Source: Arctopsyche grandis
Taxonomy: Eukaryota > Arthropoda > Insecta > Trichoptera > Hydropsychidae
NCBI RefSeq assembly: GCF_051622035.1
Contig: NC_135364.1
Location: 12,579,501 to 12,643,500 of the forward strand
Direction of reading: 5' to 3'
DNA length: 64,000 nucleotides
This document shows positions 49,728-52,700 of the stretch, piece after piece (the stretch's first letter is position 1; the number at the start of each line of letters is the position of its first letter). The translations under genes and the position numbers were made by a program. Under the pieces are notes generated by a model. The model saw nothing but the letters and a program-made list of their open reading frames with translations, was not told the origin of the DNA and did no database searches.

Positions 49728-52700
49728 TTATGGCGGAGAAGGCACGAACGATTGAACTTCTTGATAGACCAATTCTGAAACACAAATAAAATGATGATAC
49801 ATTTTCCACTAAAAAAATCAGAACAATTTAATTTTATATTCTGTTGTGAAAAGCGCACCTTTCCATCTTTCAACCGGCAAATCCATATCTTCAAAGCTTT
49901 GATCGTATGGCGATGAAGTTGGCTCGTCGGTGATATCGGCATACTGTGCTACATACTGATGGGCGAGAGCTTGTGTAGCCGTTATCCTCCTTTCTGCATC
50001 CAATTCGAGCATTTGTTTCAATAGATCTATTGCTAACGGATTAGCACCGCGAAACACTTCATGAAAATCTTTTTTCCTCAAGTGTGGCAATGATTGAATG
50101 TAGTTACGCGCCTGAAATTAAAATCCTCCAATTCAAAAATCATTTCTATAATATAACTTACATATATAGTATGTATATCAAATTAAAGTTCGAAAAACTA
50201 AGTCAACAAAACTGATCACAACACACTCTCAAATATTATTAAACGACAAACATTAAAATATTTGTTAAAATAGAATTAATATTGCCAAAAAGCGCTTTTT
50301 TTATAAAATCAAAAATCGACGTTTTGTTAAATACATATTTAAAAATTCTATAGCTTTAACATTTTAATAGCAAAAGTAATATTTTTTGGCAACTTGTTAA
50401 TTATAATAATACAGAAAAACTCACTTTAATACATATACACAGGGGCGTCATTTCAGCTTTTCCCGGGGGGGGGGGGGTGTATTATATTAAAAAAGAGTAT
50501 ATGAATTGACGGGCTGAAAACCAGACTGGTACAAGTGACATTTTTAAAAAAAACTTGTTTTAAGTGCTAAAATAATAGCATTTCATATATACTATTATTT
50601 TAGCACTTAAACCAGATATTTTTAAAAATGTCACTTGTACCAGTCGGTTTTTCAGCCCGTCAATTATAACTATTTCTTTTGATCATTTTTTTATCTATAT
50701 ATTTTTATCAATAAAATTAATAGTAGATTAATTTTAAAGGATAAACGAGTTAACATTCTTTTCTGGGAAAAATCGACGTGTTTATACCTGATGGTGTTCT
50801 AAAATTGTTTAATATTCTATTTTTGTTAGTTTAGTATTTTAATTCAAATTCATAATAATATATTAAACAACGTGGATAGTTCCGTTCAAATCAAAGGGGG
50901 GGCGACTGCCCCCCCCCCCCCCCCCAGCCCCCTCCACCCAAATGACGCCCCTGCATATATGTAAATATATAAAATAATCCCTATTGTTTGCACTTTCATA
51001 AAACTGACAAAAAGTTACACGCATGCCGACATTTACAATCCCTCTATCACAGCCCTTAATATTTATGACTTGCACAAAAAATCCGTGATATTTAAATTTC
51101 CTCAATTTACAAATTGATTTAGAAAAAAAATTGACTAAAAATCAAAATTTAACAATGTGTGTAGGAGTATAATATATGTAAACCCAAAGACATGCATTTA
51201 TTACCTCTTCGCTAGTTATTTTTTCAATTGTATCTTGTTCTGGTGTACCGCATAGAACTAATATCCTGGTAAGATGATCGATGTCTGAACAAATGCCAGT
51301 TAAGGTTATGAAAGCCTTAAGTAATTTATAAAGCGACGCCTTATTTGTAAATATATTTGTAAATGCAAGCACATTTGTTACAACATGCAAAAATGAAATA
51401 ATATGCAAAAGTAGTTAAGCACGTGTTAGTAACGTTCGTTTGGCCCTCGAACACACACCTACATCCTCCCCTCGAGTTGAAACAAATTAATATTCAGATG
51501 TTAAATAAAACTGTTTCGGTATCCACAGGCAATGTAAACTTGTATGTACAAACATTTCAAACAGTCGGGGCACATTTCTCTTCGCAACACAAAAATGCGC
51601 ACTTTGTTACATGCATAAATCAAACAATACAAAAACATTGCGATAAAAACAAGTCATACTTGATAAAATTACTCACAGATTCGGACGATATTTTCTGCAT
51701 GAACTCTTGTCCGGGCGTTCCGAGTACCTCCATTATTAAATTCAGCTGCTGGATATCTGATATTATCGATTAAGGTGGAACACAATATAGTGCTGATGAA
51801 TCTACATCCTATATGTGTGCGTTAGTTATAAACAACTCAATTTTACTGATATCATGAACGTACTTCAATCAGTTTCAATTAATCATGCACACCGCATTCA
51901 AGAAGGAATTTAAAAATAATCAATGTTAAAAGTTTCATGCATTTACAGACACTAAAAAGCATTTGTTAGTAAATACATACAGTGAAAGTTTCCGTTTAAA
52001 AATACCACATTTGGCGAAGGAAAGATGGTAATTTTTAAAAAGAAATGATTCTCTCAATGTTTTCTTAAACATTAAACACATTGAGATACAGAAATATAAA
52101 ATATAAGAAAAGAAGATAAGCAGAAGCTTACATACATTGAATCTTATTTAAACTACTATTTCTATAAGAAATGTAATGAATAAATTCAGGCATTTCAATT
52201 ACGTGCATAGTAATACCTGAACTTAAAAATCGCATTTCATATATACGACATAAATTAAATATAGCAGATCTAAAATAAAAATAAAAAATAAAAAAAGGAT
52301 ACGATCAGTCCCCGGAAATAGAGTTCTACCGGTCAACAATTCAGCCATAATACAACCAACCGACCAAATATCGACCGTTTGATTATAATGCATCCAATTT
52401 AACATAATTTCTGGGGCTCGATACCATCTAAAAAATCATTTCATTACTAATATAAAAAAAAAACTTTCGAAACACATTAATATTATAAAATAATAATCAC
52501 CTAGTTGCAACATAACCGGTCATTTCATTCTCGGTGGGCCGCGCCAGACCAAAATCTAATATTTTCAATTCACAATCTTCATTGACGGCAATATTTGACG
52601 GCTTTAAGTCCTAAAACGAAATTCATTCCGTTTGAAAAACGACGCTTAAAAACCTTCATAAAAACAATCGCAATATACACAAAACAAACCCGATGTATGA

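Follow-up and report, generated by a model that had tools for sequence, protein, structure and literature searches.

A duplicated exon in an insect p38 MAP kinase gene, with one U12-type donor predicted to feed two competing U12-type acceptors

The window, that is, the whole 64-kb stretch of DNA that was analysed, contains a complete p38 MAP kinase gene on its minus strand, with a predicted protein of 350 aa. We searched the PDB with the form of this protein that carries exon A of the list below, and the best match was MAPK14 (3.7e-178, residues 4-349); the best 60 of 381 PDB sequences at 1e-40 were all MAPK14/p38. The TGY activation motif is present, and the kinase-domain scores of the forms with exon A (224.1 bits) and exon B (221.9 bits) were nearly equal. 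Judged by its predicted product, the gene carrying these two exons is a p38 MAP kinase gene. A putative piece of fly p38b gave no match in the PDB at 1e-40 and was left unused for that reason. Viral contigs scanned for the pattern GGNACNGAYCRTATCCTT yielded 27 stretches, none with a p38 match (tblastn, 1e-3), and protein pattern scans of viral contigs and genome contigs matched 7 and 53 stretches, none of them a relative. The anatomy of the gene could be seen directly in the DNA and was as follows:

61001..61101, minus strand: p38 coding exon e1, ending ...GQVC, donor GTGAGT
53129..53265, minus strand: p38 exon e2
52690..52889, minus strand: p38 exon e3
52501..52610, minus strand: p38 exon e4, encoding DLKPSN...DFGLAR..TGY
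52303..52427, minus strand: p38 exon e5, ...LFPGTD and then the first base of the H codon (phase 1)
52294..52302, minus strand: U12-type 5' splice site GTATCCTTT, directly after e5, 0/9 mismatches to RTATCCTTT
51769..51775, minus strand: U12-type branch-site core CCTTAAT of exon A, branch A at -14
51677..51756, minus strand: alternative exon A, 80 nt, canonical version, donor GTGAGT, U2-type
51299..51305, minus strand: U12-type branch-site core CCTTAAC of exon B, branch A at -16
51205..51284, minus strand: alternative exon B, 80 nt, variant version, donor GTAATA, U2-type
49859..50111, minus strand: p38 exon e7, beginning ARNYIQSL..., U2-type acceptor
49728..49774, minus strand: last p38 coding exon e8, ending in the stop

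Several repeats were also recorded. Intron 1 of the p38 gene (56116-60122) carries a recent tandem duplication of ~2.25 kb, in which three reported blocks are 98-100% identical at a spacing of 2245-2254; an ORF within it (57399-57764) presumably resembles the tail of a retrotransposon protein. The intron between B and e7 holds a probable non-autonomous DNA transposon (50430-50963), whose inverted ends contain GGGGCGTCATTT; a 57-nt inverted repeat lies in its interior (50504-50665), and homopolymer runs of C/G are found close to either end. A GC-rich, minisatellite-like stretch (11883-12838) is open in several frames on both strands with a repeated GGEAPGVPKASG-type peptide, and is most likely not coding. 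Rfam at gathering thresholds gave no match in the window.

A preliminary description of this DNA had placed the end of e5 at 52303, the two alternative exons at 51756-51677 and 51284-51205, and the start of the next exon at 50111, and all of these coordinates were exact. It had also claimed that two 80-nt minus-strand exons, entered in phase 1 and left in phase 0, each code for their own version of one block of 27 residues, which translation confirmed; the terminal C of e5 supplies the first base of the first codon of A or of B. Inclusion of A alone or B alone gave a reading frame of 1053 nt (350 aa) with no stop. When the joins carrying both exons or neither were reconstructed, the frame was broken, as had been foreseen, and stops appeared shortly past the junction. 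Such a frame break would only clean up errors, and it is not likely to be the mechanism of exclusion.

The homology of the two exons was directly observed. A and B share 12/27 residues and 45/80 bases, and their aligned BLOSUM62 score of 61 was reached by 0/200,000 shuffles of B (maximum 34). The same score was reached by none of the 27,794 overlapping open 27-codon stretches on both strands of the window (maximum 29; minus-strand 49728-53400 excluded). Among 313 AG-80-GT pieces in the window, 95 were open in the exon's frame, and scores above 1 were limited to A (134) and B (61); no third exon copy was found among these 95. A 53-residue piece with B matched MAPK14 chains at 2e-13, a value to which its constant ends contribute. 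A chance open reading frame as the source of B was ruled out by the A/B score, and B is, as far as sequence comparison goes, a genuine homologue of A. Identities between the exons at codon positions 1, 2 and 3 numbered 17, 19 and 10 of 27 (Fisher P 0.017), so that change is concentrated at third positions, giving modest support for selection on the protein. Different codons are used for 6 of the 12 shared residues.

No collinear intron similarity between the A and B flanks was found by blastn with two 300-nt flanks; these flanks overlap each other, and a 100% match of 208 nt is that overlap. Within the A-B intron, an AT-rich segment just 3' of A (51634-51593) resembled one 5' of B (51410-51361; 78% over 50 nt, E 3.8e-4). 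This match is not collinear with the exon duplication, and the remaining flank matches all had E > 0.1.

If B were a dead or unused copy, only A would be spliced. B has fewer identities with human p38alpha than A (14/27 vs 17/27), 95/313 of the AG-80-GT pieces in the window are also open in the exon's frame, and the codon-position signal is modest. However, B has kept both its splice sites, the branch core, the frame and the length of 80 nt despite a base identity to A of 45/80, this integrity contrasts with the missing collinear similarity between the intron flanks, and the A/B score lies far above chance. We regard a dead copy as very improbable; A and B are a real and probably functional exon pair, and we infer that both exons are spliced.

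The U12-type 5' splice-site consensus is RTATCCTTT, and the U12 branch-site consensus is TTCCTTRAY, about 10-20 nt from the 3' end of the intron. The splice-site motifs of the p38 gene were compared with these directly. The e5 donor misses 5/8 scored positions of the U2 donor consensus, while the other seven p38 donors carry 3 to 6 mismatches to the U12 donor consensus. Of the 8 scored positions in the U2 donor consensus, exon A's donor (TCT/GTGAGT) misses 2, as does that of exon B (GAG/GTAATA), and the other non-e5 donors miss 1 to 3. The A and B donors, like the e7 acceptor, resemble U2-type sites. Between 52302 and 50112, the strand of the gene contained no CCTTRAY besides the A/B pair and no other donor-like site, and CCTTRAY in range of the acceptor was absent before every other p38 exon.

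On the two strands of the 64 kb together, exact matches to the U12 donor motif number two, against a shuffle mean of 1.95; one copy is the e5 donor and the only other is at 17797-17805 (+). CCTTRAY followed by AG occurs 6 times in 64 kb, fewer than the shuffle mean of 14.84; two of these sites coincide exactly with the acceptors of A and B. Branch-site-like matches on the plus strand lie at 14544-14559 (+) and 29341-29365 (+). Since the U12 motifs are not enriched across the window, the U12 case rests on position. The nominal joint chance was ~1e-9, calculated from 2/20,728 RT dinucleotides and 7/5,752 AGs (window-wide, counted per AG), a figure that assumes independence and concerns motifs chosen after being seen. 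Over the full 9-mer TTCCTTRAY, the branch sites of A and B each have 2 mismatches; the e2 acceptor has 1, at -18, though the donor of its intron is U2-type (GTGAGT), so the 9-base branch consensus alone is not discriminating. Poverty of the pyrimidine tract is not class-specific, as e4, e5 and e7 are no richer than A and B.

From their placement, these motifs point to a U12-type e5 intron with one donor and two acceptors, for which use of the minor spliceosome is predicted. The exons had been called mutually exclusive in the preliminary description, and homology, length, phases and frames support this; the U12 donor and the two U12 branch sites had been missed. We consider it likely that, after duplication of an exon in this p38 gene, one U12-type donor feeds two competing U12-type acceptors and so imposes mutual exclusion. 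The U12 donor after e5 would be used a single time, with either A or B as its partner. If A is chosen, its U2-type donor would be barred from the U12-type acceptor of B and would join e7 (U2 to U2). If B is chosen, A would be removed within the U12 intron. Skipping both exons would require a U12 donor to be joined to the U2 acceptor of e7. U12 and U2 sites are generally incompatible, according to the extract of PMC3584512, so both A to B (U2 to U12) and e5 to e7 (U12 to U2) should be forbidden. Some 3' sites are used by both spliceosomes, as stated in the extract of PMC8329584, and the exclusion may leak for that reason. Being nearer to the U12 donor, A would be the probable default and B the regulated form, as proximity suggests. 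Steric exclusion, with the A donor too near the B branch point, was ruled out by the 392-nt length of the A-B intron.

Exclusion could also come about with all introns handled by the major spliceosome, through competing RNA structures, a regulator protein or clean-up by frame shift and NMD. Joint inclusion and joint skipping of A and B both shift the frame, and inverted repeats are present in the introns (e.g. 50504-50665), but the strongest of these look like a mobile element in the B-e7 intron. Human MAPK14 exons 9a/9b are U2AF-regulated according to U2AF35 knock-down RNA-seq (PMC5224494, Table 1, as excerpted), although in the same excerpt they have the two lowest U2 branch-point scores (0.16 and -0.47) of 14 scored and 16 listed. 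These low scores would fit U12 sites, and the listing as U2AF-regulated speaks against them. An all-major-spliceosome arrangement has against it the perfect match of the U12 donor and the two branch cores, which are likewise exact and suitably spaced; we judge this arrangement unlikely and retain the U12-type donor with two competing acceptors as the preferred reading.

The two predicted proteins would differ only in the 27 residues that correspond to human p38alpha H228-S254. The placement of this exon at the same site as an alternative exon of human MAPK14, claimed previously, was supported by anatomy: A and B map to H228-S254, and the boundaries match the variation seen in the PDB chain 3oht_A. 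The CSBP1 exon peptide matched 3oht_A ('p38a') at 80.8 bits and the canonical chains at 63.4 bits; 3oht_A is a far better match, which indicates that the alternate version is real and that its structure has been solved. We take the 3oht_A version to be of the CSBP1 type, as the CSBP1 peptide matches it best, and its species to be salmon. Canonical p38alpha chains differ from 3oht_A within the H228-S254 block and rejoin it at ARNYI; the TDH motif starts at T226 in a 360-aa chain, which sets the exon at H228-S254. This block presumably comprises helix alphaG together with the first part of the MAPK insert, and a change in this surface is expected to alter substrate or partner choice, not catalysis.

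In the extract of PMC1431701, the catalytic domain of mouse Mapk14 includes mutually exclusive exons (CSBP1/2), while the excerpted part of a review of MAPK splicing names Exip and Mxi2 as the only p38alpha splice variants (PMC8699841). The CSBP1/CSBP2 pair of MAPK14 (9a/9b in the excerpt of PMC5224494) affects the same kinase and the same 27-residue block as A/B, as the comparison of 3oht_A with canonical chains indicates, but B shows no particular resemblance to the CSBP1-type exon (11/27 identities, vs 14/27 with canonical human p38alpha). The preliminary description had left the pair as either ancient or independently arisen and had called for a tree with the human pair; no tree of the 27 residues was rejected on either side. 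An A/B pair orthologous to CSBP1/CSBP2 would date back to the ancestor of bilaterians, with a loss in flies, which is compatible with the U12 explanation. It is the same exon with the same protein boundaries as in vertebrates, but B lies nearer to the canonical human exon than to the alternate one, and the ancient-pair trees fitted less well (delta logL 3.5 and 3.9) than the unconstrained tree (0) and the A+B tree (0.6). The AU P values of the unconstrained, A+B and two ancient-pair trees were 0.69, 0.52, 0.21 and 0.27, from only 8 peptides of 27 residues with no other invertebrate included. Orthology of the two pairs is thus possible, though we lean against it; the fit of these trees leans slightly to separate origins of the insect and vertebrate pairs.

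Exclusion by interlocked U12 and U2 splice sites is already described for JNK exons 6a/6b (extracts of PMC3584512 and PMC8329584). JNK (MAPK8/9) 6a/6b has this incompatible U12/U2 logic in common with the p38 pair, but JNK has two copies of the exon on the upstream side of the U12 intron, giving two U12 donors, whereas here the downstream exon is duplicated, giving one donor and two acceptors. Comparison of JNK1 chains 11zl_A and 8x5m_A revealed differences up to D-Y/H and identity from IDQWNK on; at the protein level, the variant region of these JNK chains ends at the H codon that is split by the U12 intron in p38. The Y/H difference is consistent with an intron in phase 1 following T or C. 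As the JNK variant exon seems to end at the position of the p38 U12 intron, the two introns are probably the same ancestral U12 intron, on opposite sides of which exons appear to have been duplicated in p38 and in JNK. Competition between the minor and major spliceosomes also gives exclusive exons in TMEM87A/B (exons 11/11a; PMC6717393 and PMC8329584, as excerpted), an unrelated gene in which the alternative exon lies inside the U12 intron. U2/U12 incompatibility, the same class of mechanism as for A/B, was assigned to 5/629 human clusters of mutually exclusive exons in a survey of human genes only, and the word 'MAPK' is absent from the main text of that source as excerpted (PMC5740500).

The type of exclusion proposed here is already known, and no report of it was found for this lineage among the matches listed. 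The preliminary description had known of no insect report, and this stands uncontradicted: mutually exclusive exons of an insect p38 gene were not reported among the matches listed from open-licence full texts, which leave out most subscription journals. In the extracts of a preprint and a review, p38 is said to carry a minor intron, with no position given. Human p38 stabilises U6atac, and p38 activity raises U6atac and minor splicing (extract of PMC3728624); a feedback with the minor intron of MAPK14 itself has been suggested (extract of PMC12637451).

More tentatively, one U12 intron after FPGTD (phase 1), older than the split between JNK and p38, may have been a standing generator of hard-wired either-or exons, with the 5' exon duplicated in vertebrate JNK and the 3' exon duplicated in p38 of vertebrates and of this arthropod. 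If this is true, it would give a functional reason for MAPK genes to keep minor introns, and it would place p38 under the control of machinery that p38 itself regulates. In the present gene, the either-or choice would be explainable from the DNA alone, with joint inclusion and joint skipping both forbidden by the spliceosome classes. In vertebrate p38alpha, splicing also switches at this protein position, and the JNK switch lies on the other side of the intron position. Drosophila p38 is not known to have the alternative exon version, and the pair suggests that fly p38 models may lack an isoform found in other arthropods. The gene would offer a clean test case for the proposal that a regulatory role is what preserves minor introns.
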